Below are positions 2,048-22,659 of a DNA stretch of 22,659 nucleotides, one piece after another. The number at the start of each line of letters is the position of its first letter. The first letter of the stretch is position 1. Made by a program: the position numbers and the translations under genes. The notes under the pieces are model-generated. The model was not told where the DNA came from and did not search any database. It was given only the letters and a program-made list of their open reading frames with translations. Source of the DNA: Gemmatimonadota bacterium (GTDB lineage: Bacteria > JBHIER01 > G020348925). The stretch lies in NCBI GenBank assembly GCA_020348925.1, contig CP070758.1:4660465-4683123 (forward strand), written 5' to 3'.

Positions 2048-2115
2048 GCTCAGGTCCTCACGGAACACCTCAACTATGTGCGGGACGCACTGACTGCCCC
2101 TTCAGAAAGATAGTA
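2048..2115 (-). other. Short intergenic gap before the M14 gene
   Basis: These 68 bases separate the stop of the repeat-protein gene from the M14 start. They hold the ribosome binding site and a small perfect hairpin at 2078-2090 (5-base stem, 3-base loop) with no T run. I see no terminator and no convincing promoter, which fits cotranscription of the two genes. Confidence 0.5.
2056..2059 (-). promoter_or_regulatory. Ribosome binding site of the M14 gene
   Basis: On the minus strand GAGG lies 8 bases upstream of the ATG at 2047. This supports that start over the several in-frame ATGs just inside the gene, although a purine-rich stretch before the second ATG could also serve. Confidence 0.55.
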
Positions 2116-5067: not shown

Positions 5068-5166
5068 TTCAACCTCCACTATGATATGTTACACAAAGAG
5101 CCTCACCCCGGAAGCCACAAAATTTCACGAACTCATACGGAGAGAGGTTCAATTCGAAAGGTTACC
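5068..5166 (-). other. Largest intergenic gap in the window
   Basis: These 99 bases separate the last C25-like gene from the repeat-protein gene. A strong ribosome binding site lies at its downstream end. The middle is fairly A+T-rich and could hold a promoter, but I see no convincing -35/-10 pair and no terminator hairpin. The genes either side could therefore be cotranscribed or form separate units. Confidence 0.4.
5073..5077 (-). promoter_or_regulatory. Ribosome binding site of the repeat-protein gene
   Basis: A perfect GGAGG on the minus strand is followed by 5 bases and the ATG at 5067. It decides the start in favour of that ATG over the upstream GTG at 5079. Confidence 0.75.
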
Positions 5167-8100
5167 CTAATAAGAACACGCGCCACTCCCTAAGATCACA
5201 TTAACAATCCCCACCACATCCAATATGTTCACCTGGCCGTCCCCCGTATAATCCGACGACCACAACTGGTATTCCGTCGGCCCTTCCCCACTCGCCAATA
5301 TGATATGAATCACCCAAACAACGTCCAAAATGTTCACCCTTCCAACCTCATTCACATCCCCAATCTGAGACTCAACCCCAAACCAATCCAATATTCGCCC
5401 CAACATCTCAGCGCGCATATGAGACACATTCGCCACATCATAAAACTCGATCAGCGACTCAAAGCCAACTGCAAAATATATAACCCTGTATCCACCCCTG
5501 TAACGAAGAGCCGCAGTTTCGCCGGAACCGTAATAGATGAGTATTGAGCTGGCGCCGTTGAGAGGTTCGATCACGTCCGGGCTGTCCTGATTGTCCGCGC
5601 CTAAGTCACCTGGACAGAGCGATAGCATATCGAGCTCACCGGTGATCGGATCCCCAGGCACGCTGTACAGCCATATGTCTTCACTCCGGTCGGCCAAAAA
5701 CCTTACATGCAAATAGTTCCTCAGAAAGGGTGACTCGCGAAGATCAGCCGCAATGTTTTGGCCTGTCATGAACAAACCCCCACCGTTGTCGAGAAAAGTT
5801 TTGAGCCATTCTTGATCGGATGGAGTGAGTGTAGAGTCACATTCGTTTCCCGTAAACCAGATCACTGCCTCATAATTATAAATCAAAGACGTATCCAACA
5901 TACCATCGCTCAACCTATCGTACAGATCACACCCGATACCCTCCATATCACAGGCCGCTTCGAAATATATTTCCAGAGAGTCCCCGCCATCGTCGTCAAC
6001 GAGCAGAAACGCCGACTGTCCCACGAGGACTTCGAACCGGAGAGTTGTACCGTAATAATCACCGTTTGAGAAGATGGAAAGGTGAAAGGATACATAATGA
6101 TACGGCGTTTCATTGCTCAGACGAAACACAAAAGGGTCGATCCAGTTTGTGCAGGAAGAGTCTGCCTCCACTTCAGGAAAATCCGCAGAATCACTGAGAA
6201 GTGAAAGATACTCATCTTCTGTCCTTAGCACTCCCCGTACATCGGTCGCTTGCCCACCACCAACATTCCGGAGCTGAATGCGCAGTTCCCACACCTCTCC
6301 TGCTTCGGGTCTGCCATCCCCATCACCCTCGACCTCGTTGAGAGTGCAAGTCTCATAGGTTATTATGGGTGCTACAACCTCAATGTTAAAAGCCGTCTTC
6401 GAACAGAACGATCCCCAAATTGCTGTCACAACCTCAAAAGGTATTTCGTATCCGTGCTCACAGTCTGGAGCAACAGCAACAACAAAGGGGCCTTCGCTCA
6501 CGGCCGTTTCTCTGGGAGGTAGGTCAGGAAAGGTTTGGATACTATCCTGGACACAAGCACTCGTATCGCTGCTTCTCAAAATCGCTGTCACGTCCTGAGC
6601 TGTACTCCCGCCAAGATTGAATAATCGGATGCTCAGCTCGATCACTTCGCCTATGTCGACGAGGCTATCCCCATCTCCGGTACTCAATCCAACAGAATCG
6701 TCGTCAAGAATCACTTCGCACAGATTGGTATGAGGATTCGAGGGGAATTCTGTGTTGGTTGTGAACTTTATCGCCGAGTGATCTGATAACTCTTGGGCCC
6801 CAGGAACGTATTGTCCGGCATAGGTGTACTCCAGACCGCCCTTCTTGTCCGGAGACTCAATCCCCACAGTGGCAAAATTCCCCGCATAATCACTGTTGCT
6901 CACCGCCCGATACTGAAACACGATCTCTCCATCCCCCGTTGGTGTCGGATAATACTCGGGATCATAGAGTACGACCTGAAATGTCTCTTCTGCATCATCA
7001 TAATCGTTGTAAATCCTGCTCCACTCCACAACAAATCTATGTTCCTGCTCATCATTGAAATATACGACACAACCATTCCCCATGTAGAGATCGTCCCAGA
7101 ATGGGGCCACGAGGCACGGCGGGTTGAGAACCGCCGGAATGGACCAATTCCTGAAATTTGTCATCCACGTTGCCCCAAAAGAAAGCCATCCATTCGAACA
7201 GACGGATACTTCATCGTAAGTATTCCCATAATAACGAAAGGCGAACGGCAAGGGCAATACTTCGGTATCCCCCTGAGGATAATTCTCCCCGGTATAATAC
7301 CCAGGCTCAATGTCATCGATGAGATTTAAAACAGCCCCAGCCCCCCCGTGGAGTGGATCGATTTCAATCCACTCATAATTGGGTCTGTCATAATAGCGCC
7401 AGTCGAAACTATCGTAAGCGAAATATCCGTAGGAATCGGGGCCGGAAGGATCGGATGGGGTGGCAAGCCCAACTGTTACCGGTAACATTACTACGTCCCT
7501 CATCTCAGAATTGCTCTCCACATACAGGGTGAAGTGCACTTGATGTCCGGGGAACATACTCTCATGGGCTGAGATGATGAAAGGATTTTCCGAATTATCA
7601 CCCTGGCTTTCCATCATGATGGTTCCAAAGTCCGCTCTCGAATCGATGAGAACGATATTTGGATCGGAAGTCCTGAGTGTTGCTCGAACGTTTTTACCGA
7701 CCTTTTTCCCCTCATTGGTTATCGTTACTACAAGGCTACCCGTTTCACCGGGATCGAGGCGGTTGGGAAGCAGTGTCTGGCTTGAATCTTCTATATGAAA
7801 AGAGTGCAGGGAGAAGTCAGGAGCCTCCACCGAGATATCCAAAAAGTCTTCCCAAAGAGTTCCACTCCCATCGACAATTTCTATGGTGCACGTTACTACA
7901 TGTCCATCCGGGCAATCCGGGGTAATCGAAATGACGTACTCTTCTTGACCCGCAACATCACTTCCAGGTGGAATATCCCCAAAATTCGCTATGCTTTGAT
8001 GCACAGCCCCGTATGAATCATCAACCGCTATCTCAGCAGAGACGGAGAAAGCCGTCCGGCTTACACCCGCATTCCTCAAAGAAAGTATCAATTCCATCGT

Positions 8101-10233
8101 TTCTCCCGGATTGACTTTTCCATCGCCATCGCCCGAGCTTTCACCCAATGAATCGTCATCGATATGATGGTTTGAGAGGGAGACACAGACCGGGACTTCC
8201 TGACCGAGTAAAATTGTCTGGTAGGGTTTGAAATTGTGTTTCGTAACAGTCACCAAAACGGAATCATTCTCTCCCACGGAGACAGGCAGGGTGATTCTCC
8301 CATCCGGTTCTGTATATCCTCCGGAGAGGATCCGTCCACCTGCGGTTAGACAGACATACGCACCATCGACGGGGAGATTGTCAGAATTTTCAACTGTCAT
8401 AAACAACTGGTTGGTCCCAACACCAATCACTGAGGGATGATCGACAAAAAGATTGTTGGGGATATCTGTCCACATCACCAGTCCCGGATCGCCGATCAAA
8501 GTGTATATATAAAAATAACACTCTACGGAATTCCAGGTGTTTCCCGGACCCCTGTTGTGCGGATATTGCATATACAGCTCCATTTTCGCTCGGGCAAAAG
8601 CCTGACCCACTGTAAACAGGGAATCGTCAAAGACACCGGCATAAAATCCAGCATCCAGGACATTATTATAATTTACAAAGGTAAACATCGATGTGGGACC
8701 GATGATAGCAACGGCTCCTCTCGGAAAAGAAACCGTTCCGGCACGCAACCACGCTTCTGCCGGACAATCCTCATTAAAATCAGCAGCATTGCAGACCATA
8801 TCTGTAACCACGGGCAGCATGAACCCATTATGCAGACCATAGATGTTGTCAAGGTCAGCAGGAGTTTGATATGCAGACGTCCATCCACCCCAGTCCATCC
8901 AACCACGATAGTTGACAAAGGCGACTCCCGAGTTCACGACAGCCGAAATATATCCCACATCACATTCATACCCTGGAAAAGTAAAGGACGTATCCACCTG
9001 TGTAAAACCATTATCCAGGAGTTTCTCTCTCACCCATAGTTTCAGTGTTCTCGTTGAAGCATTTCCTTCATAATTGCAGATCATGAGAGCTCTCTTGTAC
9101 CAGTTGGTCCGCCCCATGTATGGATTCCTCTCATACGAGACAATCTTATTCGCAACCGTTCGCATCTCGTTGACGGAAGACACTGACAATCGCCCCACAA
9201 AGACATCCGGGAAATAGTCCTCACCCTCCAGCATACAATAAGGATGGTCAGCAGCCACCCATTCCAATCCATCATCATAATAAAAGGTTGGCATTTCATC
9301 GACATCACCGACGAGAATGACATATTCAAGGGGAACGGAAGCAGACTCGTAATAATCCTGGATATAAATTCGTATCAGATTGTTACTCGGGTTCGAACCA
9401 ATCCGCGACAGCTTCACCATTTCTGTATGATGCCCCTTCTGTCGCTTCCACTCCACCAGTGGTTCCAACGCTTCATAATAGGCATCAGGTGTAATAATGA
9501 GATACCCTCCCCTTACAACCTCCTGAGATGACGGCAGGGCAGTATAGTTTACTATCGAACTTCTGTAGAGCTTTTCAAAAGCTTCCGGTCTTCCAAGGCT
9601 CCGGCGTTTTGGTGTGGCTGAATTTTCGGACCGCTTATATGTCAGCTTCACAGTAAGCCTTCGACACACTTTCACCTCTTCACGAACGGGATTGTACTGC
9701 ACAGGATGAAGAATAAGAGGAACAAGACAAAGGTCCCGAACCATCACCGCAGACCCAACCTCAGCAGCAGGTTCAGGATAGAACGCATCCTGGGCATAGA
9801 ACTCTCGGCTCATGAGAAAAGGGCGCTCGTCTCTTTTCTCGGTCCGTTCCTCCTGATGCGGCCACATCCGTATGTCGCTCAGGATCGAAGAGTCACGAAG
9901 GTCTACCTCAACATCCACGGAGACACCCGGCGGTACGGCCACCAACCTGGCCAGAACAGGCAGCTCCGGCCGACCGGCCTCGGTTCTCCACCCGGCCCGG
10001 GATAGGCGTACCTTCTGGTACTTCTCGCCTCCTTCAAAGATATCCTCAATGACCGGCTCGGGAATCTCAAGAGCTATTTCGGTCCCACTGTTGTCCGAAG
10101 CCAACACCCGAAACTCCGGAACATCTCGCTCCAATAAAAATTCGGCCCTAGAACCCGCACTGAGAAAAAAGACCGTCCCTATGCACACAAGAATAAAATG
10201 TCTTCTTCGAAAAATCTCCTTGACTGTGATCAT
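5167..10233 (-). CDS. C25 (gingipain)-like giant secreted protein, copy 1, dockerin-tagged
   Basis: The protein has 1688 residues. In order: signal peptide (about 1-30), gingipain-type propeptide (31-240), C25 fold (about 243-590, with D-H-P-Y and P-D-V-F-V-G-R-L motifs and an ending G-D-P-G-L at 582), Ig-like domain (about 595-685), CARDB-like modules from about 692 and 805, nidogen-like domain (about 935-1158), two more CARDB-like modules (from 1177 and about 1294), ThuA/GATase-like domain (1410-1618) and dockerin (1625-1688). Cys481 matches the catalytic cysteine of C25 peptidases and Cys490 a second conserved one. The position expected to be the catalytic histidine is Trp445 in N-Y-R-G-W-M-D-W-G-G-W, so ordinary gingipain activity is doubtful. 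The first dockerin loop has Val1630 where the other copies have Asp, and the second-loop Cys is Tyr. The start overlaps the previous stop as ATGA. Confidence 0.9.
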   Translation of the reverse strand: MITVKEIFRRRHFILVCIGTVFFLSAGSRAEFLLERDVPEFRVLASDNSGTEIALEIPEPVIEDIFEGGEKYQKVRLSRAGWRTEAGRPELPVLARLVAVPPGVSVDVEVDLRDSSILSDIRMWPHQEERTEKRDERPFLMSREFYAQDAFYPEPAAEVGSAVMVRDLCLVPLILHPVQYNPVREEVKVCRRLTVKLTYKRSENSATPKRRSLGRPEAFEKLYRSSIVNYTALPSSQEVVRGGYLIITPDAYYEALEPLVEWKRQKGHHTEMVKLSRIGSNPSNNLIRIYIQDYYESASVPLEYVILVGDVDEMPTFYYDDGLEWVAADHPYCMLEGEDYFPDVFVGRLSVSSVNEMRTVANKIVSYERNPYMGRTNWYKRALMICNYEGNASTRTLKLWVREKLLDNGFTQVDTSFTFPGYECDVGYISAVVNSGVAFVNYRGWMDWGGWTSAYQTPADLDNIYGLHNGFMLPVVTDMVCNAADFNEDCPAEAWLRAGTVSFPRGAVAIIGPTSMFTFVNYNNVLDAGFYAGVFDDSLFTVGQAFARAKMELYMQYPHNRGPGNTWNSVECYFYIYTLIGDPGLVMWTDIPNNLFVDHPSVIGVGTNQLFMTVENSDNLPVDGAYVCLTAGGRILSGGYTEPDGRITLPVSVGENDSVLVTVTKHNFKPYQTILLGQEVPVCVSLSNHHIDDDSLGESSGDGDGKVNPGETMELILSLRNAGVSRTAFSVSAEIAVDDSYGAVHQSIANFGDIPPGSDVAGQEEYVISITPDCPDGHVVTCTIEIVDGSGTLWEDFLDISVEAPDFSLHSFHIEDSSQTLLPNRLDPGETGSLVVTITNEGKKVGKNVRATLRTSDPNIVLIDSRADFGTIMMESQGDNSENPFIISAHESMFPGHQVHFTLYVESNSEMRDVVMLPVTVGLATPSDPSGPDSYGYFAYDSFDWRYYDRPNYEWIEIDPLHGGAGAVLNLIDDIEPGYYTGENYPQGDTEVLPLPFAFRYYGNTYDEVSVCSNGWLSFGATWMTNFRNWSIPAVLNPPCLVAPFWDDLYMGNGCVVYFNDEQEHRFVVEWSRIYNDYDDAEETFQVVLYDPEYYPTPTGDGEIVFQYRAVSNSDYAGNFATVGIESPDKKGGLEYTYAGQYVPGAQELSDHSAIKFTTNTEFPSNPHTNLCEVILDDDSVGLSTGDGDSLVDIGEVIELSIRLFNLGGSTAQDVTAILRSSDTSACVQDSIQTFPDLPPRETAVSEGPFVVAVAPDCEHGYEIPFEVVTAIWGSFCSKTAFNIEVVAPIITYETCTLNEVEGDGDGRPEAGEVWELRIQLRNVGGGQATDVRGVLRTEDEYLSLLSDSADFPEVEADSSCTNWIDPFVFRLSNETPYHYVSFHLSIFSNGDYYGTTLRFEVLVGQSAFLLVDDDGGDSLEIYFEAACDMEGIGCDLYDRLSDGMLDTSLIYNYEAVIWFTGNECDSTLTPSDQEWLKTFLDNGGGLFMTGQNIAADLRESPFLRNYLHVRFLADRSEDIWLYSVPGDPITGELDMLSLCPGDLGADNQDSPDVIEPLNGASSILIYYGSGETAALRYRGGYRVIYFAVGFESLIEFYDVANVSHMRAEMLGRILDWFGVESQIGDVNEVGRVNILDVVWVIHIILASGEGPTEYQLWSSDYTGDGQVNILDVVGIVNVILGSGACSY
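10230..10233 (-). other. ATGA stop-start overlap between copies 2 and 1
   Basis: The TGA of copy 2 and the ATG of copy 1 share bases. An AGGAG directly abuts the ATG, too close for a normal ribosome binding site, although a GGGGA lies slightly further upstream. Translation of copy 1 therefore probably depends on ribosomes finishing copy 2. This junction differs from the 13-base overlaps seen between the other copies. Confidence 0.75.
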
Positions 10234-13200
10234 CTCCTAATCCCCAGTATGACATTCACGATGCCCACCACATCCAGTATGTTCACCTGGCCGTCCCCGG
10301 TACAATCCGAGGCCCACACCTGATACTCCGTCGGATCACCCTCAATAGCCAGTATAATGTTGATCATCCTCACAATGTCCAAAATATTTACAGCCCCATC
10401 CTCATTCACATCGCCAATCCGAGGCTCAACTTCAAACCAATCCAATATGCGCCCCAACATTTCAGACCGCATCGCATACGCATTGGCGACATCATAAAAT
10501 TCTATCAGAGACTCAAATCCAACAGCATAGTACACAAGCCCGTACCCATTTCGATACCGAAGCGCCGCCGGGTTCTCAGTGCCGTAATATGTGAGAAGAG
10601 GATTTGCACCCCCGAGAGGCTCGATCTCGTCCGGACTGTCCTGATTGTCCGCACCGTAATTACCGGTGGCAAGAGAGAGCAGCCCCAGATCGCCTGTGAT
10701 CGGATTCCCCGCTACCCCCTCCACCCATATCACCCCGCTGCTGTCTGCCACAAGCTCGGCATGCATGTACTCCAACAAAAAGGATGAACCCGAAAGATCC
10801 GAAGCAATGTTCTGACCGCTCACAAACAGGTTTCCCCCCTCATCAAGATACGCCTCCAAACACTCCTGATCGAAAACTGTCAAGGTCGACTCCCGCTCAC
10901 TCCCCGTAAACCATATTATCGCCCAGTAATCTCGAAGCATTGATACCCCAGGCGCACCCTGAACCGACCTCTCATACACCTCATAACTCCTTCCCTGACG
11001 GTTCAACGCATCCAGATAATACACCTCACACCCATCCCCCCCATCATCATCGACAAGCAGAATGTCCGCCCGCTCTATCACGATCTCAAAGCTGAGAACG
11101 GTAGAGTAATGATTGCTATTCGAGGAGACAGACAAGTCGAAGGACCTGTTATGATACGGAGTCTCATCGTCGATACGAAAAAGAAACGGATCGTCCGAAT
11201 TTTCACATGCTGCCTGCGGCGGGATGTTTAAAAAAGAGACAGTATCATTGAGAAGAGTCACATACGCATCATCTATCGTTAAGACAGCACTGACCCCTGT
11301 TGCTTGATCACCACCAATATTTTGAAGATTGACATAGAACTCCCACGTTTCTCCTGATTCAATTCTGTCATCCTCATCGCCTTCGATAACATTCAGAGTG
11401 AAGGTTTCGTGGACGATGACCGGGGCAGCAACTTCAATGTCAAAATTCGTCAGTGAGCAGAACGATCCCCCCGTCCGTGTTTCCAATACAAAATCGATGG
11501 TGTGTCCGTCCTCACAAACAGTAGCAATTTCTATCACGAAAGGCCCTTCGCTTCGGGCCGTATCCCCGGGTGTGATATTGGGAAAGGACTTTAGGCTGTC
11601 TTGAACCGATACCTTGAGATCCGCACTCCGCAACAGAGCCGTAATTCCCTCGGCATTTTCCTGGCCGTGATTGATCACCCTGAGAGCCAGTTCAATCCTC
11701 TCCCCTGCGTCAACAATGCCATCTCCATCCCCGCTACTCCTCCCATAAGCATCGTCGTCCAAGTGGCAGCCATAATATCCGAGAGACGGACTTTCCGGTC
11801 GGTGTCTCCCCGTCTTAAACTTTATGGCCAGGCCATTGTGCAATTCCATCGCACCGGGGGCATATTGCCCGGCATAGGTATATCCCAAACCGCTCTGCTT
11901 GTCAGGCGACGCAATCCCAACCGTGGCAAAATTCCACGCATAATCACTATTGTTCACTGTATGGTATTGAAAAAGAATCTCGCCATCCCCGGTATCACTC
12001 CGGTAATATGCCGGATCGAACAGAAAAACTTGAAAGGTTTCAAGAGCATCGTCATAATCGTTATGCACCCCGCTCCACTCCACACAAAACCTGTGTTTCG
12101 GTGCATCATAATAATAAGTCACACTCCCATCCCCCACGTACAGATCATCCCAAAAGGGAGCGATAAGGCATGGTGGGTTGAGAACTGCCGGAATACCCCA
12201 GTTCCGAAAATTGGTCATCCAGGTTGATCCCATGGAAAGCCATCCGTTCGAACATACGGAGATGGTGTCGTAACTCTGGCCGTAATACCGAAACGTGAAG
12301 GGAAGAGGTAACACCTCGGTGTCTCCCTGAGGATGATCATAGAAGGTTGAATCCAGGCCCGGCTCATCGACAAAATTGAAAAGGGTACCTGAACCACCGA
12401 GGGAAGGATCGATTTCAAACCACTCGTAGAGGGGTTTTTCAAAATAGGACCAGTCGTTGGAATCAAAAGCGAAATAGCCGTAAGCATCAGGACCCACCGG
12501 ATCCGATGAGGAAATATTTCCAATTGAGATCGATAGGACAATCTCGTCCCTCATTCCAACATTACTTTCCAATACGAGCACGAATTGTGCCCGGTGTCCG
12601 GAAAAGGTCATCAGATCGGCTGAAATCAGGAAAGGATCATCGGAATTGGTCGCCTCAGTTCCTAAAGGCATATTTCCCCAGAAAGCTGTTGAATCGACGA
12701 GCGTGATATTTGAATCGATCGTTCTGAGCGTTGCCTCGACATTCTCTCCAGGTTTTCGTCCTTCATTGGCGATTGTCACCACAAGATGCGCCGTTTCACC
12801 GGGATCAAGTCGACCGTTCGGTAACACCTGATGTGCATCTTCAATCACTACTTCTTCAAGAGAAAACGCCGGGGCCGCCACACCTATTCTGAGAAAATCA
12901 TTCCACTCGTTCCCATTACTATCGGTTGCTTCTAAAGATAAAACGAGCTCATGACCGTCCGGACAATCATGCCTGACTGAGAATACATAGTCACCCTGAC
13001 CCCAAACAGAATCTCCGGGTGAGATTGCACCGAACTGTACAAATTCCTCAAGCACAGTAGCGTATCTATCGTCAATTGCGAATGTTGCAGAGACTGAAAA
13101 AGCAGTTTCCCCTATACCCGAATTTTTCAACGAAAGACTCAATTCAACGGTCTCTCCGGGATTGAGCCTCCCATCACCATCCCCCGAACTGCCATCTGAC

Positions 13201-15308
13201 GAATCGTCATCGATCCGATAATCCGCAATTGAAACCACAACCTCCGCCCCCTCACCGCCAAGGACCGTTTGATACGGCTTGAAATTATGTTTCGTGACGG
13301 TTATCCTGACAGAATCGCCGATCTCCACGGACTGAGGAAGCGCGATCCGACCATCACCCCCGGTAAATCCGCCGGAGAGTATCTCTCCGCCCCTCGTCAA
13401 ACTAACGTACGCATCGCTCACAGGACGATTCATCGAATCCTTGACTTTCAGGTCCAAAACATTCACCCCAGATTCGATAACCGACGGATGTTCAACTGTT
13501 AAGAGCCGGGGAATGTCGGTCCACATGTCAAGCCCGGGATCACCGATCAAGGTATACATATAAAAATAACACTCCACCGAGTTCCAGGCGTGACCTGGTC
13601 CTCGGTTCAACGGGTACTGGTTGTACAGCTCCGTCTTGGCCCGGGCTAAAGCCTGGCCCACAGTGAAGAGGGAGTCGTCGAAAACCCCGGAATAAAATCC
13701 ACCATCCAGGACATTATTAAAGTATACTTTCGTATTGCTCGCCGTAGGCCCGACAATGGCTATTCCCCCCTTAGGATTCAGGGGCGTTCCGGCCCGCAGC
13801 CACCCCTCAGCAACACAGTCGAACAGATAAAAAGATGCCTGAGTACACGTCATATCAGTAATGACAGGCAGCATGAATCCGTTCTGCAACCTGTAGATGT
13901 TATAAAGATCAACATAGGAAGCCCACCCCCCCCACATTGCAATGCCGCGGTAGTTCACAAAGGAAACCCCTGAATTCAACACGGTTGAGATAAACCCCAC
14001 ATCACATTCGGACACTGAATACGTAAACGATGTATCAACCTGAACAAAGCCATTATCGAAGAGCTTGTCCCTCACCCACAGTTTCGTTGTTCTCGACGAA
14101 GCGTTCCCCTCAAAGTTACACACCATGAGCGCTCTCTTGTACCAATCCGTTTGTCCCATGTATGGCTCCCTCTCGTAGGAGACAATCTTGTTGACGACCG
14201 TCCGCACTTCTTTCAGTGATGAGACCGAAAGCCGCCCCACGAAGACATCCGGAAAATAATCGTCTCCCTCGAGCAGACTGTAGGGATGATCCGTTGCATC
14301 CCATGGCCAGGAAGGAAACAGCATTCCCTCCATCTCGTCATAATACAAAAAGGTCGGCATGTCATCGTCACCCACCAGAATAACATACTCAAGCGGAACG
14401 GAAGAACGTGTATAATAGTCCTGGATATAACTGCGAATATGCTCGTTCGTGGGCAATGACCCTGTCGCTTGAAAGGATCCTATCTGTGACAGCATAACGA
14501 CCTCGGTGTGATAACCCTTCTGCCGTTTCCACTCCGCCAGAGGCTGCAATGCTTCAAAATAGTAATCAGGAGTTATGATGAGATATCCACCCCGCTCAAT
14601 TTCGTCTGCTGAAGACGAATCGTAATTCAATATTGAACTTCGAAACAGTTTTTCAAAAGCTTCGGATGTGCCAGGACTGTCATGATGTCTCCTCGAGCCA
14701 CCATTTCCCAGAGGTCTCAATACCACAGTAATATTCCGATACACCCTCAACTCCTCTCGAAGAGGATTGTACTGGACAGGATGTACGATAAGCGGCACGA
14801 CTTCAAGATCACGAATCCTTATCGGAGACCCGACCTCTACCACTGACTCCGGATAAAAAGAATCCCGGGTGTATATCTCCTCATCCAATGTGAAAGTATG
14901 TTTCCCCTTCCTTTCAAGCTCCTCCCCTCGACTCGGCCAAACTCGTATGTCACTTGCGGTCGAATAATCACCAGACCTAACCTCCACATCCACGGCTACG
15001 CCTCGCGGGACAGCCACCAACCTCGCCAGCACAGGCAATTCCGGACGACCGGCTTCAGTCCTCCAGCCAGTCCGGGATATGCGGACCTTCTGATAGATGT
15101 GTCCTTCCCCAACCACATCCTCAATGACCGGCTCAGGAATCTCAACCGAGATCTCAATCCCACCATTATCCGCGGCCAATACCCGAAACTCCGGAACATC
15201 GCTCTCCAATAAAAATCCGGCCCGAGAACCCGTACTGGGGATGAGGGCGAAAACTGCGCCCCACAGCCATACGCTCACCCCTCGGCAGACTCGCTTCAAT
15301 TCGAACAT
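10230..15308 (-). CDS. C25 (gingipain)-like giant secreted protein, copy 2, dockerin-tagged
   Basis: The protein has 1692 residues and the same plan as copy 1: signal peptide, propeptide, C25 fold (from about 240), Ig-like domain, CARDB-like modules, nidogen-like domain (from about 943), two CARDB-like modules (from 1184), ThuA-like domain (from about 1417) and dockerin (1632-1692). The C25 cysteine is Cys488, in D-M-T-C. The expected histidine is Ile456, in N-Y-R-G-I-A-M-W-G-G-W. The final residues are G-I-R-R, so the terminal G-x-C found in the other copies is missing. The reading frame is open up to 15392, but I start at ATG 15308: this places a typical signal peptide at the N-terminus, aligns with copy 3, and has GGGAG 7 bases upstream. 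It overlaps the end of copy 3 by 13 bases. The ThuA-like domain and dockerin resemble copy 4 most closely. Confidence 0.9.
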   Translation of the reverse strand: MFELKRVCRGVSVWLWGAVFALIPSTGSRAGFLLESDVPEFRVLAADNGGIEISVEIPEPVIEDVVGEGHIYQKVRISRTGWRTEAGRPELPVLARLVAVPRGVAVDVEVRSGDYSTASDIRVWPSRGEELERKGKHTFTLDEEIYTRDSFYPESVVEVGSPIRIRDLEVVPLIVHPVQYNPLREELRVYRNITVVLRPLGNGGSRRHHDSPGTSEAFEKLFRSSILNYDSSSADEIERGGYLIITPDYYFEALQPLAEWKRQKGYHTEVVMLSQIGSFQATGSLPTNEHIRSYIQDYYTRSSVPLEYVILVGDDDMPTFLYYDEMEGMLFPSWPWDATDHPYSLLEGDDYFPDVFVGRLSVSSLKEVRTVVNKIVSYEREPYMGQTDWYKRALMVCNFEGNASSRTTKLWVRDKLFDNGFVQVDTSFTYSVSECDVGFISTVLNSGVSFVNYRGIAMWGGWASYVDLYNIYRLQNGFMLPVITDMTCTQASFYLFDCVAEGWLRAGTPLNPKGGIAIVGPTASNTKVYFNNVLDGGFYSGVFDDSLFTVGQALARAKTELYNQYPLNRGPGHAWNSVECYFYMYTLIGDPGLDMWTDIPRLLTVEHPSVIESGVNVLDLKVKDSMNRPVSDAYVSLTRGGEILSGGFTGGDGRIALPQSVEIGDSVRITVTKHNFKPYQTVLGGEGAEVVVSIADYRIDDDSSDGSSGDGDGRLNPGETVELSLSLKNSGIGETAFSVSATFAIDDRYATVLEEFVQFGAISPGDSVWGQGDYVFSVRHDCPDGHELVLSLEATDSNGNEWNDFLRIGVAAPAFSLEEVVIEDAHQVLPNGRLDPGETAHLVVTIANEGRKPGENVEATLRTIDSNITLVDSTAFWGNMPLGTEATNSDDPFLISADLMTFSGHRAQFVLVLESNVGMRDEIVLSISIGNISSSDPVGPDAYGYFAFDSNDWSYFEKPLYEWFEIDPSLGGSGTLFNFVDEPGLDSTFYDHPQGDTEVLPLPFTFRYYGQSYDTISVCSNGWLSMGSTWMTNFRNWGIPAVLNPPCLIAPFWDDLYVGDGSVTYYYDAPKHRFCVEWSGVHNDYDDALETFQVFLFDPAYYRSDTGDGEILFQYHTVNNSDYAWNFATVGIASPDKQSGLGYTYAGQYAPGAMELHNGLAIKFKTGRHRPESPSLGYYGCHLDDDAYGRSSGDGDGIVDAGERIELALRVINHGQENAEGITALLRSADLKVSVQDSLKSFPNITPGDTARSEGPFVIEIATVCEDGHTIDFVLETRTGGSFCSLTNFDIEVAAPVIVHETFTLNVIEGDEDDRIESGETWEFYVNLQNIGGDQATGVSAVLTIDDAYVTLLNDTVSFLNIPPQAACENSDDPFLFRIDDETPYHNRSFDLSVSSNSNHYSTVLSFEIVIERADILLVDDDGGDGCEVYYLDALNRQGRSYEVYERSVQGAPGVSMLRDYWAIIWFTGSERESTLTVFDQECLEAYLDEGGNLFVSGQNIASDLSGSSFLLEYMHAELVADSSGVIWVEGVAGNPITGDLGLLSLATGNYGADNQDSPDEIEPLGGANPLLTYYGTENPAALRYRNGYGLVYYAVGFESLIEFYDVANAYAMRSEMLGRILDWFEVEPRIGDVNEDGAVNILDIVRMINIILAIEGDPTEYQVWASDCTGDGQVNILDVVGIVNVILGIRR

Positions 15309-18300
15309 GAGCCAACTCCCAAGATAACATTCACGATCCCCACCACATCCAATACATCCACACCACCATCCCCATTGCAATCCGATGCCCACATGTGATA
15401 TTCCGTCGGATTTGATTCAAGGGTCAAAATGATGTTGACCGTCTTTACGATATCCAAAATATTCACCGCACCATCCTCATTCACATCCCCCACCTGGGGC
15501 TCAAAACGAAACCAGTTGAGGATCCGCCGGAGCATATCGACCCTCAAGGCATCGCCGCCGGCCACATCGTAGAAATCGACGATCGATTCAAATCCCACGG
15601 CGAAATAGACTACCCTGTAGTCGTTGAGATATCGAAGAGCCGCGCTGTAGTCTGACTGGAAGTATTTGAAAATGGGGCATGCTCCTTCCAGAGGCTGAAC
15701 CGCATCAGGACTGTTCTGGTTGTTCGCACCATAGTCTCCGCTGGCCAGGGACAGCAGACCGTAGGTGCCTGTGATGGGATCTCCGGCCGCCCCATTCATC
15801 AAATTATTACCGCTGCTGTCAGCGACAAATTCGGCACGCACATAATCCCTCAGGAACGCCGACGCCCGTAAATCGGAAGCGATGTTTTGTCCGCTTAAAA
15901 AGAGGCTGCCGCCGTTGTCGAGAAAGAGACCGAGCCACAGCTGATCTGCGGGTGTGAGCGTTGAATCGCGCTGGTTCCCCGTAAACCAGATGACGGTCTC
16001 ATATTCGTCAACCAGCGAGGGATCGAGTGGACCCCCTCTCAACCTGTCATGATACCTGAAAATCGGGTCCAAGACATCCAGTGGATCCGTGTAGAATTGC
16101 TTGATGAATCCCCCACCGTCACTATTGACAAGCAGAATATTCTCCCTTCCGACTTCGAGCTCAAAGCGAACGACGGTTTCGTACCGGCCATTATTGGAGT
16201 CCAGGGACAGATCGAAGGAGGCATGATGGTACGGGGTCTCCTCGCTCAGGGTGAAGACAAAGGGTCCGGCTGCATTCGTGCAGACCGCATGGACCCCAGC
16301 TTCCGGGAAGAGGGCGGTATCCTCAATGAGGGTGATATGCACATCCTCTGTGGACAATACACCCCAAATATCCGTCGCCTCTTCATCACCTATATTCTGG
16401 AGGCTGATCTGCAACTCGCAGGTCTCCCCTGACTCGACCCTGCTATCCCCATCACCGAAACTTACCCCGACACTGTCATCGTCTGCGACACAACCGTAGA
16501 AATTAAGATACGGCCCTTGAGGAAGAGGCTTCCCGGTAGTAAACTTTATCGATAGGCCGTCCCTCAGGTCGCCCGCCCCAGGAGCGTTTTGCCCGGCATA
16601 GGTATACTCCACGCCGCTTTTTTTGCCCGGAGCCTCTATACCCACTGTGGCATAGTTAAAGGCATAATCACTATTCTTCACCGTATGATACTGAAAGAGG
16701 ATCTCGCCGTCACCGGAAACCGTTTGATGAAATGAAGGATCATAGAGGATGACCTGAAAGGTCTCAGGGGCATCGTCATAGTCATTGAACACCCTGCTCC
16801 ACTCCACAACAAACCTGTGCCCTGGCGCATCATAATAATAGGCCACATGCCCATCGCCCATATACAGATCATCCCAGAACGGAGCGATCAGACACGGCGG
16901 GCTGAGGGTCGCCGGAATGGACCAGTTCCGAAAGTTCGTCATCCATGTCGATCCCATGGAGAGCCAACCGTTCGAGCATACGGCGATCCGGTCGTACGTT
17001 CCGCCATAAAAGACAAAGGAGAAAGGCAGCGGCAGTACCTCCGTATCTCCCTGAGGATAGTAAGGGATATATCCCCACGGTGGTCCGGGTGGCGGTGCTG
17101 GTTCATCGACAAGACTCACAAGGGTTCCGGAACCACCGTAAGACGGATCGATTTCAACCCACTCGTATTGGGGGCTGTCGTAATAGCGCAGGTCGCTGTT
17201 ATCGTATGCGAAATATCCGTAGGAATCCGGTCCTGTGGGATCTGCTGATGTCTGGGTTCCCACGGTCAACGACAGGATTTCCGTATCCATCATCCCTGAA
17301 TTGCTCTCCAGATGCAGGGAAAATTGAGCCTGATGTCCGAAGAACATGATCGGATCGGCTGAGATGACGAAGGGGTCATTCGAATGATCAGCCTGACCTC
17401 CTCTGGGGATGAACCCGAAGTCGGCCGTTGAATCGAGCACGGCGATATCCGGGTCAGTTGCTCTGAGTGTTGCGTGCGTGTTATTTCCGGCTTTTCCTCC
17501 CTCGTTGTTGAGGGTCACGGTGAGTCGAACAGTCTCGCCAGGATCGAGCTGGCCATTGGGTAGTGCTTGGTCGGAATCCGCAATCATGAGGTTCCCGAGA
17601 GAAAAGTCCGGGGCTTCCACCAACACCTCCACAACGTCGCTCCAGAAAGAACCATCTCCATCAGTGATCTTTACGGAAAAAGCAAGCTCATGCCCGTCGG
17701 GACAATCCGGAGAGACTGCAAGAACAAACGCCTCCTGACCCCACACTGTCTGCGCCGGTGAAATGCTCCCAAAACTCGCCACGCCCTCACTAACAGCGAC
17801 ATAGGGATCATCGCTCGCGATCTCTGCAGTCACCGAGGAGGCCGTCTGGCTTGTGCCCACATTCCGGAGGGACAGAGCCAATTCAATTATCTCACCGGGG
17901 TTGACAGTACCATCACCGTCACCCAAACTTTGGTCGGACGAATCGTCATCGATGAGGCGGTCCGAGAGGGCAACACAAACCGGTGCTTGCTCGGCAGGGA
18001 TGAGGGCTTGATAGGGTTTGAAGTTATGCTTCGTAACGGTTGCGGTAACGATGTCGTCTGCCCCGACGGGGAGGGGCAGACGAACCTTCCCGTCCGATCC
18101 GGTGAACCCTCCGGAGAGAATGTGCCCCTCCCCGGTCAGACAGACATACGCACCACGAATGGGCTGTTGGCCACCATCTTCAACCGTTAGACTGATCTGA
18201 TTGGAGCCGACCGCAATTTTCGAGGGATGTTCCACATGAAAAGACTGAGGGCTATCCGTCCACATCTCAAGTCCGGGATCCCCCATCAAGGTGTACATGT

Positions 18301-20017
18301 AAAAGTAGCATTCCACTGAATTGTGGGCGTGACCAGGGCCTCTGTTGAGCGGGTACTGCATGTAGAGCTCCATTTTGGCCCGGGCCAGAGCCTGGCCCGG
18401 GGTAGAGAGGGAATCGTCAAAGACCCCAGCATAAAAGCCCCCATCCAGAGCGTTGTTGAAATACCCTTTCGTATTGATCGCCGTGGGGCCCATGACGGCC
18501 ACAGCCCCTCTCGGGCTGAGGACCGACCCGGCCCGCAGCCACGCCTCCGCCGGACAGTTGAAATAAAAGGCCGCAGACCGGCAGACAAAATCGGTGATCA
18601 CCGGAAGCATAAATCCGTTGTTGAGCGCGTCAATATTATTGTAGTTATCCGGTGAGGTCCATCCGCCCCAATCCAGCTCCCCACGATAATTGATATATGA
18701 CACCCCTGAATTTATTACAGAGGAAATGAACCCGACATCACAATCCAGCATATTGAATGTGAACGACGTATCAACCTGCGTGAAGCCGTTATCCAGCATC
18801 TTCTCCCCGATCCAGAGGTTTATCGTTCTGGCGGATGCAATGCCTCCATAGTTGCACACCAGGAGGGCGCTCTTATACCACTCTGTCTGTCCCACATACG
18901 GGTCCCGTTCATAGGATACGATTTTATTCACAACCGTGTGCATCTCGTTCACGGAGGAGACGGAGAGCCGTCCCACAAACACGTCCGGAAAATAATCATC
19001 CCCATCCAGCATGCTGTATGGATGATCGGCGGCATCCCACGGGCCGAGGGGGCTGTAGTTCTCTTCCATTTCATCGTAATAGAAAAAGGTCGGGAGTTCC
19101 GCAACATCGCCTACGAGAACCACGTACTCGAGGGGTACTGCAGATTGCGCGTAATAATTCATTATATAATTTCGAATTTCATCATTATCAGGATTCGCCC
19201 CTATCTGCGACAACCTCACCACTTCCGTATGATGCCCTTTCTGCCGCTTCCACTCAACGAGAGGCTGCAAAGCCTCATAATAGATGTCAGGCGTGACGAT
19301 GAGGTATCCTCCCCGGACGAGCTCCTGAGATGACGAGGGGGCATGATAATTCAAAACCGAACTCCGATAGAACTTCTCAAAGGCTTCCGGAATTGCTGTG
19401 TTCGAGACATGTCCTCCTTGAACGTGCACCTTGACTCTGAGACTCCTCACGATCTTCAACTCCCCCCGAACCGGGTTATACTGAACGGGATGAATGATGA
19501 GGGGAATGACACACAGATCCCGAATCCTGAACGGAGAGCCAACCTCTACAACCGAATCCGGATAAAAAGAATCCCGCCCGTATACTTCCTCGTTCATTAT
19601 GAAAGAACTCCCGATCCTCTTATCTACCCGCTCCTCTTGACAGGGCCACAACCGGATATCGCTCCGGACCGAGTATTCGCGCTCACGCACCTCGACATCC
19701 GCAGGGATTCCTCGCGGGACTGCCACCAGCCTGGCAAGAACAGGCAACTCCGGACAACCGGCCTCATTGCTCCAACCAGCCTCGGCTATGCGTATCTTTC
19801 GATAGGTTCGCCCGCCTTCAACGACATCCTCAATCAACGGTTCAGGAACCACAATCGATATCTCAGTCCCCGCACCCTCCGAAACCAGTACATGAAATTC
19901 CGGAACATCGCTCTCCCGAAACAATTCAGCCCAGGAACCCACACTGAGAAGAAATACCCCCACGACGCTGATAAGAATGCAATGCCTTTTCCGACAGACG
20001 CCCTTTAATCCGCACAT
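15296..20017 (-). CDS. C25 (gingipain)-like giant secreted protein, copy 3, one module short
   Basis: The protein has 1573 residues: signal peptide (about 1-31), gingipain-type propeptide, C25 fold (about 237-590), Ig-like domain, CARDB-like modules, nidogen-like domain (from about 933), a single CARDB-like module (from 1179), ThuA-like domain (from about 1295) and dockerin (1510-1573). The C25 cysteine is Cys479, in D-F-V-C. The expected histidine is Glu447, in N-Y-R-G-E-L-D-W-G-G-W. The acidic start of the CARDB module and the start of the ThuA-like domain are 117 residues apart, against 234 in copies 1, 2 and 4, so exactly one module is missing. The ThuA-like domain begins L-L-V-N-S-D rather than L-V-D-D-D. 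Both dockerin loops look complete, and both tail cysteines are present. The start overlaps copy 4 by 13 bases with GGGAG 7 bases upstream. Confidence 0.9.
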   Translation of the reverse strand: MCGLKGVCRKRHCILISVVGVFLLSVGSWAELFRESDVPEFHVLVSEGAGTEISIVVPEPLIEDVVEGGRTYRKIRIAEAGWSNEAGCPELPVLARLVAVPRGIPADVEVREREYSVRSDIRLWPCQEERVDKRIGSSFIMNEEVYGRDSFYPDSVVEVGSPFRIRDLCVIPLIIHPVQYNPVRGELKIVRSLRVKVHVQGGHVSNTAIPEAFEKFYRSSVLNYHAPSSSQELVRGGYLIVTPDIYYEALQPLVEWKRQKGHHTEVVRLSQIGANPDNDEIRNYIMNYYAQSAVPLEYVVLVGDVAELPTFFYYDEMEENYSPLGPWDAADHPYSMLDGDDYFPDVFVGRLSVSSVNEMHTVVNKIVSYERDPYVGQTEWYKSALLVCNYGGIASARTINLWIGEKMLDNGFTQVDTSFTFNMLDCDVGFISSVINSGVSYINYRGELDWGGWTSPDNYNNIDALNNGFMLPVITDFVCRSAAFYFNCPAEAWLRAGSVLSPRGAVAVMGPTAINTKGYFNNALDGGFYAGVFDDSLSTPGQALARAKMELYMQYPLNRGPGHAHNSVECYFYMYTLMGDPGLEMWTDSPQSFHVEHPSKIAVGSNQISLTVEDGGQQPIRGAYVCLTGEGHILSGGFTGSDGKVRLPLPVGADDIVTATVTKHNFKPYQALIPAEQAPVCVALSDRLIDDDSSDQSLGDGDGTVNPGEIIELALSLRNVGTSQTASSVTAEIASDDPYVAVSEGVASFGSISPAQTVWGQEAFVLAVSPDCPDGHELAFSVKITDGDGSFWSDVVEVLVEAPDFSLGNLMIADSDQALPNGQLDPGETVRLTVTLNNEGGKAGNNTHATLRATDPDIAVLDSTADFGFIPRGGQADHSNDPFVISADPIMFFGHQAQFSLHLESNSGMMDTEILSLTVGTQTSADPTGPDSYGYFAYDNSDLRYYDSPQYEWVEIDPSYGGSGTLVSLVDEPAPPPGPPWGYIPYYPQGDTEVLPLPFSFVFYGGTYDRIAVCSNGWLSMGSTWMTNFRNWSIPATLSPPCLIAPFWDDLYMGDGHVAYYYDAPGHRFVVEWSRVFNDYDDAPETFQVILYDPSFHQTVSGDGEILFQYHTVKNSDYAFNYATVGIEAPGKKSGVEYTYAGQNAPGAGDLRDGLSIKFTTGKPLPQGPYLNFYGCVADDDSVGVSFGDGDSRVESGETCELQISLQNIGDEEATDIWGVLSTEDVHITLIEDTALFPEAGVHAVCTNAAGPFVFTLSEETPYHHASFDLSLDSNNGRYETVVRFELEVGRENILLVNSDGGGFIKQFYTDPLDVLDPIFRYHDRLRGGPLDPSLVDEYETVIWFTGNQRDSTLTPADQLWLGLFLDNGGSLFLSGQNIASDLRASAFLRDYVRAEFVADSSGNNLMNGAAGDPITGTYGLLSLASGDYGANNQNSPDAVQPLEGACPIFKYFQSDYSAALRYLNDYRVVYFAVGFESIVDFYDVAGGDALRVDMLRRILNWFRFEPQVGDVNEDGAVNILDIVKTVNIILTLESNPTEYHMWASDCNGDGGVDVLDVVGIVNVILGVGSCSN
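15316..15320 (-). promoter_or_regulatory. Ribosome binding site of copy 2, inside the end of copy 3
   Basis: GGGAG on the minus strand lies 7 bases upstream of the ATG at 15308. It falls within the last codons of copy 3 (the L-G-V of its dockerin tail), so the same bases encode the tail and start the next gene. Confidence 0.75.
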
Positions 20018-22659
20018 GTACCAACTCCCAAGATAACATTCACAATACCCACGACATCCAGGATATTCACCTGACTATCCCCGGTGCAATCCGACGTCCA
20101 CACCTGATACTCCGTCGGATCCTCCTCAATAGCCAGTATGATGTTGATTACTCGCACGATGTCCAATATGTTTATCGCTCCGTCCTCATTCGCATCTCCA
20201 ATTTGAGGCTCAACTTCGAACCAATGCAATATCCGTCCCAACATCTCGGCACGCATGGCAAAGGCGTTGGCCACATTATAAAACTCGAGCACCGATTCAA
20301 ATCCAAACGCATAATAGACAACCCTGTACTCCCCTGTGTAGCGAAGAGCCGCGACATCACCGGTACCATAATACGTAAAGACAGGAGTCGATCCTGCCAC
20401 ACACACAACCTCATCCGGGCTATCCTGATTGTTCGCTCCGTAGTCCCCACTGGCCAATGACAGCAAATCATACCCTCCTGAGATCGGATCACCTGATACC
20501 CCTTCAACCCATATCACCTCACTGTTGTCGGCCCCAAACTCAGCATGCAAAAACTCCCCTAAAAACGATGTGCCCGTGAGATCAGAGGCGATGTTCTGAC
20601 CACTCACAAACAGGTTTCCGCCGGCATTACAATACTCCCTCAAACCCTCCTGATCAGAAACCGTCAACGTCGACTCTCGCTCAGCCCCCGTGAACCATAT
20701 CACCCCCCAGTAATCGCCAAGTACCGAAATACTCAGCTCGCCCTCAGCCAGCCTGTCGTATACCTCATAACTTCTCCCCTGACCATCCAAAGCACTCATA
20801 TAGTAAACCTCGCACCCTTCTCCACCGTCATCATCCACAAGCAACAGATCCGGGCGCCCAACCACAAGCTCACCACTGAGCACGGTGGTATAAAAATCAT
20901 TGTTGGCAAACAGAGACAGCTCGAGAGAAACGGGATGATACGACGCCCCGGCCCCGACACTGAACACAAAGGGACTCGACTCGTTGGTCCGTGCAGAATC
21001 GGCAGCCATGTCCGGAAAGTCCGCCGCCTCTTCAATGATGGTCAAATACTCATCATCCGTCGACACTATTCCCCACACATCGATCGCCTGACCGCCGCCG
21101 ACGTTCTCAAGGGTGACGACCAATTCCCACGTCTCCCCGGATTCAGGTCTGTCATCCCCGTCACCCTGAACCTCTGTGAGCGAACCGTCCGCAACGACGA
21201 GAGTGGGGGCAACCACTTCGAGATCGAGATAGGTGTACGCGGGAGGTACTCCAGATATGTGCGTCTCCAGCGCAAACTCGATGATGTGTCCATTCTCGCA
21301 ATCCCCAGCAATCGAAACAATATAAGGCTCTTCACCAAAAGCCGCATCCCCGGGGGCAATATTCGGAAAACTCCGCACACCGCTCTCAATCGTCACGCTG
21401 GCATCCGAAGTTCCCAATTCGGCCGTCACTCCCTGGGCCTCCTCCTCTCCAAAGTTGATCAATCGCAGGCGCAACGCAACCCGCTCGCCTGCATCCACCA
21501 ATCCATCACCATCACCGGAACTTCCGCCCATGCCATCATCGTTCATCTGCAAATCATAGTAGTTCAAATACGGTCCTTCCGGCAAGAGACGACCCGTCGT
21601 AAACCTGATCGCCGTACCATCCTCCAATTCCCTCGCCCCCGGTGAATACAAGCCAGTGTAAGTATATTCCACCCCTCCCCTTTTATCCGGCGACTCGATA
21701 CCCACAGTGGCAAAATTCCAGGCGTAATCACTGTTGCTCACTTCATGATACTGGAACAGGATCTCACCATCGCCGGTGACCGTCGGATAATGGGCAGGAT
21801 CGTGCAAGATCACCTCGAAGGTCTCCACCGCATCGTCATAATCGTTGTACACACGGCTCCACTCCACGACAAACCTGTGCCCGGACGCATCGTAATAAAA
21901 GGCCACGTTCCCGTCACCCATGTACAAATCATCCCAGAAAGGGGCAATAATGTTCGGCGGACTGAGCACCGCCGGCAGGGACCAGTTCCGAAAGTCCGTC
22001 ATCCACGTCGCCCCCATGGAGAGCCATCCGTTTGAACAGACGGAAATCTCATCGTAGGTACCTCCATAATAGCGAAAGGTGAAGGGCAAATCCAGCACCT
22101 CCGTATCACCTTGATAATAATCGGCCCAATCCCCTTGTTCAGGCAGCGGTTCATCAACGAAGCTCAATACGGTCCCGGAGCCACCATACTCAGGATCTAT
22201 CTCGAACCACGCGTAGGCAGGACGATCGTAGTAGCGCCAGTCCCCGTTATCGTACGCCATATATCCGTAGGAATCCGGCCCCGTGGGATCCGAGGGGGAT
22301 GGAACACCAACGGGCAGAGAAAAGGTCTGTGTATCCCGCATCCCCGAATCGCTCTCGAGATACAGGGTGAATTGAGCTTGATGTCCCGAATACGTTCTGA
22401 GATTTGCGGAGACGATAAAAGGATCATCCCCATTCGATCCGTGGGACCCGATGGAAATTGATCCGAAGTCCGCAGCGTGATCGATGAGATCAATATCTGG
22501 GTCGGACGTACTCAGGATCCCCCGGATATTTTCTCCATCCTTGTCCCCCTCATTCCGAAGAGTCATCACCAACTGAACTGTCTCACCGGGATCGAGCAGG
22601 CCGTTGGGGGACATCTGATCGGAATCTTCTATCTGAACGTCCGACTGAACAAAATCCGG
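20005..22659 (-). CDS. C25-like giant secreted protein, copy 4 (5' part outside window)
   Basis: The frame is open to the right edge (884 residues visible). The first visible residues, P-D-F-V-Q, match an internal CARDB-like module of copy 3, so the ATG at 22614 is an internal methionine and the signal peptide, propeptide and C25 domain are expected beyond the window. Visible, in order: the rest of a CARDB-like module, a nidogen-like domain (about 22270-21590, with C-S-N-G-W-L-S and P-F-W-D-D-L-Y), two CARDB-like modules (21543-20842), a ThuA-like domain (from 20850, motifs V-D-D-D-G-G and S-G-Q-N-I-A-S-D-L, no Cys at the GATase elbow), and a dockerin (from about 20199) with loops D-A-N-E-D-G and D-C-T-G-D-S. 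The C25 assignment for this copy rests on homology of the visible part. The stop overlaps copy 3 by 13 bases. Confidence 0.85.
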   Translation of the reverse strand, partial: PDFVQSDVQIEDSDQMSPNGLLDPGETVQLVMTLRNEGDKDGENIRGILSTSDPDIDLIDHAADFGSISIGSHGSNGDDPFIVSANLRTYSGHQAQFTLYLESDSGMRDTQTFSLPVGVPSPSDPTGPDSYGYMAYDNGDWRYYDRPAYAWFEIDPEYGGSGTVLSFVDEPLPEQGDWADYYQGDTEVLDLPFTFRYYGGTYDEISVCSNGWLSMGATWMTDFRNWSLPAVLSPPNIIAPFWDDLYMGDGNVAFYYDASGHRFVVEWSRVYNDYDDAVETFEVILHDPAHYPTVTGDGEILFQYHEVSNSDYAWNFATVGIESPDKRGGVEYTYTGLYSPGARELEDGTAIRFTTGRLLPEGPYLNYYDLQMNDDGMGGSSGDGDGLVDAGERVALRLRLINFGEEEAQGVTAELGTSDASVTIESGVRSFPNIAPGDAAFGEEPYIVSIAGDCENGHIIEFALETHISGVPPAYTYLDLEVVAPTLVVADGSLTEVQGDGDDRPESGETWELVVTLENVGGGQAIDVWGIVSTDDEYLTIIEEAADFPDMAADSARTNESSPFVFSVGAGASYHPVSLELSLFANNDFYTTVLSGELVVGRPDLLLVDDDGGEGCEVYYMSALDGQGRSYEVYDRLAEGELSISVLGDYWGVIWFTGAERESTLTVSDQEGLREYCNAGGNLFVSGQNIASDLTGTSFLGEFLHAEFGADNSEVIWVEGVSGDPISGGYDLLSLASGDYGANNQDSPDEVVCVAGSTPVFTYYGTGDVAALRYTGEYRVVYYAFGFESVLEFYNVANAFAMRAEMLGRILHWFEVEPQIGDANEDGAINILDIVRVINIILAIEEDPTEYQVWTSDCTGDSQVNILDVVGIVNVILGVGTCAD
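20025..20029 (-). promoter_or_regulatory. Ribosome binding site of copy 3, inside the end of copy 4
   Basis: GGGAG lies 7 bases upstream of the ATG at 20017 and within the dockerin-tail codons of copy 4. The arrangement matches the copy 3 to copy 2 junction, so the junction itself was duplicated along with the gene. Confidence 0.75.

Follow-up and report, generated by a model that had tools for sequence, protein, structure and literature searches.

The closest described relatives of the proteins considered here are the gingipains RgpB and Kgp of Porphyromonas gingivalis, with which they share a propeptide, a caspase-like catalytic domain of two subdomains, a nucleophile Cys and an Ig-like domain. 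PorU, the type IX sortase, is a member of the same C25 family. In the capsule locus of Bacillus, the polymer synthase genes adjoin the gene of a secreted enzyme, CapD or PgdS, by which the polymer is released or anchored; CapD is a gamma-glutamyl transpeptidase of the Ntn type and PgdS a hydrolase of the NlpC type, and C25 or M14 enzymes are not known from that locus. In Cloacimonadota, an anaerobic diderm candidate phylum, a poly-gamma-glutamate (PGA) operon of CapB, CapC and CapA has been described, and DAPI staining has indicated a PGA matrix around the cells (PMC13082233). The accessible portions of a report on Ca. Stygibacter (Cloacimonadota) place a dockerin-tagged gingipain-like peptidase, a tailed cohesin scaffoldin and PGA synthesis genes in one genome, and propose an arrangement in which the scaffold is held by its tail and the cargo by its dockerin (PMC8542988). 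In one estuary sediment, C25 made up 41-45% of all peptidase genes with a signal peptide, and this was taken as a sign of gingipain-like, arginine-directed proteolysis (PMC6752024).

The locus described here departs from each of these. Compared with RgpB and Kgp, the array proteins have lost His211 and Asp163, occur in five tandem copies, and carry a long middle region, a C-terminal dockerin and a neighbourhood of PGA genes. With PorU the array shares the family and the sorting-tail system, but its members are dockerin-tagged and lack the His, and the sixth C25 of the locus, where tested against the PorU model NF033707, scored 72.8 bits, far under the cut-off of 420. The Cloacimonadota operon has pgsB/pgsC-type genes in common with this locus, but its description mentions neither C25 nor gingipains (PMC13082233), and in the accessible portions of the Ca. 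Stygibacter report no tandem array, His loss or link between C25 and PGA genes is described (PMC8542988). A dockerin-tagged C25 in a PgsBC genome of Cloacimonadota is, from those same portions, already published (PMC8542988); what is new here is that C25 proteins of a clade whose active site has changed stand in tandem within a PGA locus, with dockerins in place of sorting tails.

The window, meaning the whole stretch of 22,659 nt that was analysed, is one complete contig of the source genome (G000:C1:4660465-4683123) with exactly 100 N on each side (G000:C1:4660365-4660464 and 4683124-4683223), so that its neighbours in the scaffold are not evidence of its context. At least three contig ends are misplaced in the scaffold, and the neighbours on the EF-Tu side and on the side of a 308-aa dockerin protein are untrustworthy. 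Three complete C25 (gingipain-family) paralogues and one cut by the edge are arranged head to tail along the minus strand. Gene A (5167..10233; 1688 aa, dockerin-tagged) has its C25 domain at 8476..9504 (PF01364, 202 bits) with the motifs NYRG[W]MDWGGW and TDMVC, and meets gene B in a 4-nt stop/start overlap, ATGA (10230..10233). Gene B (10230..15308; about 1692 aa) has its C25 domain at 13527..14585 (201 bits) with NYRG[I]AMWGGW and TDMTC; its reading frame extends from 10230 to 15392 and would give 1720 aa from a GTG at 15392, and the ATG at 15308 is the more plausible start. A 13-nt overlap (15296..15308) joins it to gene C (15296..20017; 1573 aa, dockerin-tagged), which has its C25 domain at 18266..19306 (204 bits) with NYRG[E]LDWGGW and TDFVC and is shorter than its siblings by one Ig/CARDB-like unit of the middle region. 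The homologous junction of genes D and C is again an overlap of 13 nt (20005..20017), and the 3' part of gene D (20005..22659; 884 aa), recognised from its reading frame and a contig overlap, runs to the contig end, which cuts off the rest. The preliminary description of three full and one partial tandem paralogues with overlapping ends and dockerin tags is thus borne out in coordinates, strand and sizes, the overlaps being of 4, 13 and 13 nt.

Genes A to C each encode, in Pfam terms, a Propeptide_C25 (PF08126), a Peptidase_C25 (PF01364, 6e-58 to 1e-58) and a Dockerin_1 domain, and in the visible part of gene D the dockerin alone was recognised. With PF01364, the propeptide and the C25 fold all present, the array is homologous to peptidase family C25. 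Between the C25 domain and the dockerin, genes A to C have a C25 Ig-like domain, several CARDB-like units, a conserved nidogen-like region and a domain starting LLVDDDGG; the predicted model of this last domain, which precedes the dockerin, is poor (pLDDT 51). The N-termini of the array are signal-peptide-like as judged by eye. The copies are 55-64% identical in amino acids and about 66-71% in nucleotides, and their conservation varies by region, from 72% in C25 and 71% in the nidogen-like region to 49-57% in the propeptide and others and 34% in the signal region. Assembly duplication as the source of the array, an artefact that the preliminary description had allowed for, was ruled out because the copies share only about 60% of their amino acids, some 40% being different.

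The AlphaFold model of the propeptide, C25 and Ig domains of gene C (pLDDT 87) matches RgpB with a Z of 45.5 and an rmsd of 1.8 over 404 residues at 24% identity, and the fold is therefore intact. At the active site, alignment places the gingipain R motif NYTGHGSETAW, which holds the catalytic His211, opposite NYRG[W/I/E/V/F]xxWGGW in the five array copies; in gene C the counterpart NYRGELDWGGW is encoded at 18659..18691 on the minus strand. The catalytic His is absent from all five copies and from the sixth C25. The nucleophile Cys (RgpB Cys244) is present as TDxxC in all five, and its equivalent in gene C is Cys479, with the codon at 18581..18583 (minus strand). Other C25 genes of the same genome keep the catalytic His. 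In a survey of 186 C25 domains, 30 had the RG motif without the His, and all 30 kept both the Cys and the Arg. The column of Asp163, which in RgpB lies in the S1 pocket and sets Arg specificity, was acidic in 0 of 33 RG-type domains as against 53 of 96 aligned His-keeping domains, the alignment being less certain here than at the His and Cys. The former His position, set in the otherwise constant motif NYRGxxxWGGW, is one of only 5 of the 349 C25 positions with a different residue in all five copies. Judged by these residues, the array proteins are probably not ordinary arginine-cutting proteases. Two other departures from the catalytic His were seen elsewhere in the family, YCG[D]G in an otherwise gingipain-like domain (L244, G098) and WAHRAAW, with a His preceding the Arg, in a subfamily of G007 (L055-L057, L219).

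The contig extends at both ends through overlaps with other contigs of the genome. The right end (21983..22659) dovetails with G000:C1:3735597-3736273 on the opposite strand over 677 bp with 7 mismatches (99%); both sides reach contig ends, and the next-best matches in the genome are at most 72%. Five of the seven differences in this overlap alter the protein, which is more than neutral strain variation predicts or else reflects contig-end sequencing error. The 5' part of gene D, with its C25 domain, lies at G000:C1:3733200-3736273, and the joined gene D would be sibling-like with 1683 aa; upstream of it on the right-joined contig is a fifth C25 gene, E (1687 aa). The left end (1..119) dovetails over 119 bp at 95% identity with G000:C1:93828-93946, its sole match in the genome besides itself and the end of a contig that bears a sixth C25 gene with pgsB and pgsC. 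Across this join the M14 reading frame of the window continues into a complete dockerin and a stop, and a single contig of genome G001 has its propeller, M14 and C25 genes in this very order, which independently supports the join. We infer both joins from the overlaps (the left one also from the reading frame and synteny) and not from reads. The full co-directional order would be dnaE, C25 genes E-D-C-B-A, propeller, M14, sixth C25, PgsB, PgsC, TIGR04332, two secreted proteins and LVIVD. The flanks, where further copies were to be sought, have thus contributed gene E and the sixth C25; the earlier count of at least four copies stands as a lower bound on a five-gene array with a sixth C25, and the number four itself was an effect of the contig edge.

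The genes around the array encode both secreted enzymes and PGA synthesis proteins. Next to gene A on the minus strand is a secreted propeller-like repeat protein with a C-terminal dockerin (2116..5079; TIGR04275 1.5e-12, Dockerin_1). In G001 its orthologue, at 45% identity over 923 aa, bears a type IX sorting tail where this protein has the dockerin. A GH43 identity was rejected for the propeller-like protein of the window, the match being under the cut-off and taken as propeller resemblance. An M14 zinc carboxypeptidase, carboxypeptidase T-like and cut at the contig end, follows at 2..2068 on the same strand (PF00246 1e-41), and its HxxE, NRNY and second His align with those of carboxypeptidase T. 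On the left-joined contig the order is sixth C25, PgsB, PgsC, a TIGR04332 protein, proteins of 303 and 488 aa and an LVIVD propeller. The sixth C25 (1252 aa) is RG-type, has W at the former His position and ends in a FlgD-like sorting tail. Downstream of it on that contig, PgsB matches TIGR04012 with 449.8 bits (cut-off 222.7), PgsC matches TIGR04011 with 135.6 bits (cut-off 96.45) and the PGA system protein matches TIGR04332 with 297.9 bits (cut-off 100). With partial coverage of the literature, nothing relevant was found on TIGR04332 or PgsW. The secreted proteins of 303 aa (L206:99-1010) and 488 aa (L205:15584-17050) are partly alike, have no match in Pfam or NCBIfam, and follow TIGR04332 in an order conserved in three lineages; they are candidate new parts of the PGA system.

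Dockerins are found on genes A to D and on the propeller protein by Dockerin_1, and the M14 dockerin is completed through the left join. They are also widespread in the genome (5.0 Mb), with at least 148 significant matches among 150 scored of 525 candidates, and therefore do not single out the array proteins as mutual partners; the suggestion that the copies themselves build one extracellular assembly gains no support from them. The genome has 81 cohesin matches, 73 of them over the cut-off; this is about the number in the most intricate cellulosome reported, that of B. cellulosolvens with 78 cohesins (PMC5590126). Cohesin proteins with sorting-type tails include one with four cohesins and FlgD_ig (L198) and one with three cohesins (L195). 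A true PorU (3287031-3291056, 737 bits) is directly followed by a PorV-family protein (L005, G000:C1:3287031-3292180), and the genome therefore has a type IX secretion system. The natural reading of these sequences is that the scaffold would be held by its sorting tail and the cargo by its dockerin. The orthologues of the C25, M14 and propeller proteins in relatives have type IX sorting-like tails at their ends. Dockerins thus replace type IX sorting tails on orthologous proteins, a clear example of exchange between two systems of surface attachment. An unusual mix was seen at another locus of the genome (L011, G000:C1:1203788-1210147), where each of two near-duplicate proteins combines a weakly C25-like region with a cohesin match and a dockerin at the C-terminus.

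The altered active site marks a clade. The 30 His-lacking RG domains group with 3 related AHR domains in a single clade (32 rows, SH-aLRT 99), with the long-branched L174 outside, and within the domain tree the five array C25 domains form a single subclade (SH-aLRT 100). The tight tandem family proposed earlier is thus real and is lineage-specific. PgsB was found above its cut-off in 17 of 192 genomes, and RG-type C25 genes were read in 13 of these 17 (G000, 001, 003, 007, 051, 068, 098, 101, 104, 140, 148, 151, 155). Among PgsB-negative genomes, none of the 48 read had an RG-type C25, and all 106 C25 domains sampled there keep the His. The association has a Fisher value of 5e-17 over all genomes and 1e-13 within C25-bearing genomes, figures that ignore kinship and unread genes and are descriptive. 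In a set of named genomes, the three with RG-type C25 (LCP-89 and two Cloacimonadota) are all PgsB-positive, and PgsB also occurs in 6 of 16 genomes with only His-keeping C25 among the loci read. The co-occurrence may partly reflect shared phyla in which PgsB is common. A C25 gene on a contig labelled Pacearchaeota (L035) is possibly from a misbinned bacterial contig.

Gene order provides stronger evidence for the PGA link than co-occurrence does. A C25 gene lies within about 7 kb of PgsB in 6 of the 13 RG-type genomes as against 0.85 expected, although the neighbours in G098, G101 and G148 were unread or not demonstrably RG-type and the read neighbour in G148 keeps its His. In the other 7 of the 13, no C25 was found at such a distance from pgsB, and some RG-type genes lie far away from it. 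The RG-type clade is syntenic with pgsBC in three unrelated lineages. One contiguous block of G068 reads PgsB-PgsC-TIGR04332-303-488-LVIVD-RG-type C25-M14, and one of G001 reads PgsB-PgsC-TIGR04332-303-488-LVIVD-C25-C25, with propeller-M14-C25 in a second block; both genomes are of other families, with a kinship to the source genome no closer than the domain. No paper was found, with partial coverage of the literature, on a C25 clade lacking the His or on an association of such a clade with pgsBC.

From the observed sequences, motifs, clade, synteny and PgsB co-occurrence, and with the contig joins, docking, residual catalysis and substrate as suppositions, an explanation can be put forward in which the window would be the middle of a long locus for a PGA surface matrix. 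PgsB and PgsC would make and export PGA, and the C25, M14 and propeller proteins would be exported and held through dockerins on cohesin proteins that bear type IX sorting tails; their counterparts in other lineages carry the sorting tail themselves. With a gingipain fold and propeptide, the Cys kept, the His and Asp lost and an invariant Arg (YRG), the RG-type C25 proteins would most likely be altered cysteine hydrolases or transpeptidases with a different pocket in each copy. Together with the M14 enzyme they would trim, release or fix the gamma-glutamyl polymer or its surface-protein holders. That modified C25 and M14 proteins, displayed together at the surface, process or organise a PGA matrix, releasing or fixing the polymer or its holders, is a reading we regard as about evenly poised between right and wrong. 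The C25 and M14 proteins look like ordinary protein hydrolases by family, which counts against it, and to our knowledge neither degradation nor linking of PGA has been ascribed to any C25 or to such an M14 type. A bolder form of the proposal, which we advance tentatively and expect to be wrong, is that the RG-type C25 proteins are a new class of cysteine enzyme built on the gingipain fold, with the Cys and an invariant Arg and without a dyad His. In diderm candidate phyla this class would cut gamma-glutamyl polymer or transfer it, in a CapD-like job, and tandem copies with different pockets would tune or diversify that activity.

The locus could instead serve cellulosome-like scavenging, in which secreted proteases, expanded in number and mounted on cohesin scaffolds, would digest detrital protein and the PGA genes would be a separate surface trait. 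The dockerin-tagged C25 and M14 peptidases and the many cohesins of the genome would suit this, as would the dominance of C25 among exported peptidases in estuary sediment (PMC6752024), and the accessible portions of the Ca. Stygibacter report read a dockerin-tagged gingipain-like peptidase and scaffoldin as polypeptide degradation (PMC8542988). Every array copy, however, lacks the catalytic His and the Asp of the Arg pocket while the other C25 proteins of the genome keep the His, and scavenging does not predict the pgsBC synteny or the all-or-none PgsB co-occurrence, which leaves it a serious but improbable competitor. Somewhat less probable still is that the RG-type C25 proteins are catalytically dead and act as binding modules for the polymer or surface partners. 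In favour of pseudoproteases, the whole clade lacks the dyad His, the position is taken by hydrophobic or other residues, and it is free to vary between copies. On the other side, 30 of 30 domains in the first survey keep the nucleophile Cys, which dead enzymes usually lose as well, and the propeptide has not been lost. A QM/MM study of RgpB has moreover found Cys244 to be activated by the substrate or ligand and not by another base of the enzyme (PMC10882967), and loss of the His therefore need not abolish the chemistry. A catalytic His relocated to a D-H-x-Y motif of the N-terminal subdomain would make these proteins normal cysteine peptidases. Over 183 domains, a His follows the conserved Asp in 24 of 30 His211-lacking and 8 of 153 His211-keeping domains, and one domain (L043) has both His, as expected of an intermediate; but His211 was lost in about one event, so that the correlation is not independent evidence, and the DHxY His is missing in Cys-keeping members of the clade (L013, L050, L161, L119, L157 and more). 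We consider this relocation very improbable. Should a large part of C25 prove to differ in its active site and to belong with polymer-matrix loci, inferences of proteolysis from C25 genes will need revision. For the release or holding of PGA in uncultured diderm bacteria, the locus offers a few conserved candidate genes that can be tested.

Tandem runs of RG-type C25 genes also occur elsewhere. Three consecutive genes are found in Cloacimonadota (L015), where they carry sorting tails and represent an independent tandem expansion in the same clade, and pairs are found in G001 and G051; Delongbacteria have a tandem C25 pair of the ordinary, His-keeping type. The possibility that related genomes would hold single scattered copies only has therefore not been borne out. 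The suggestion that the products are needed together gains support from the conserved multi-gene neighbourhood, but this neighbourhood includes PGA genes, which lay beyond the sequence open to the preliminary description. The suggested array of variants with different targets is modestly favoured by the former His position, which differs in all five copies (W/I/E/V/F). In G001, a secreted protein of 1152 aa lies between two RG-type C25 genes (L048:11057-14515).
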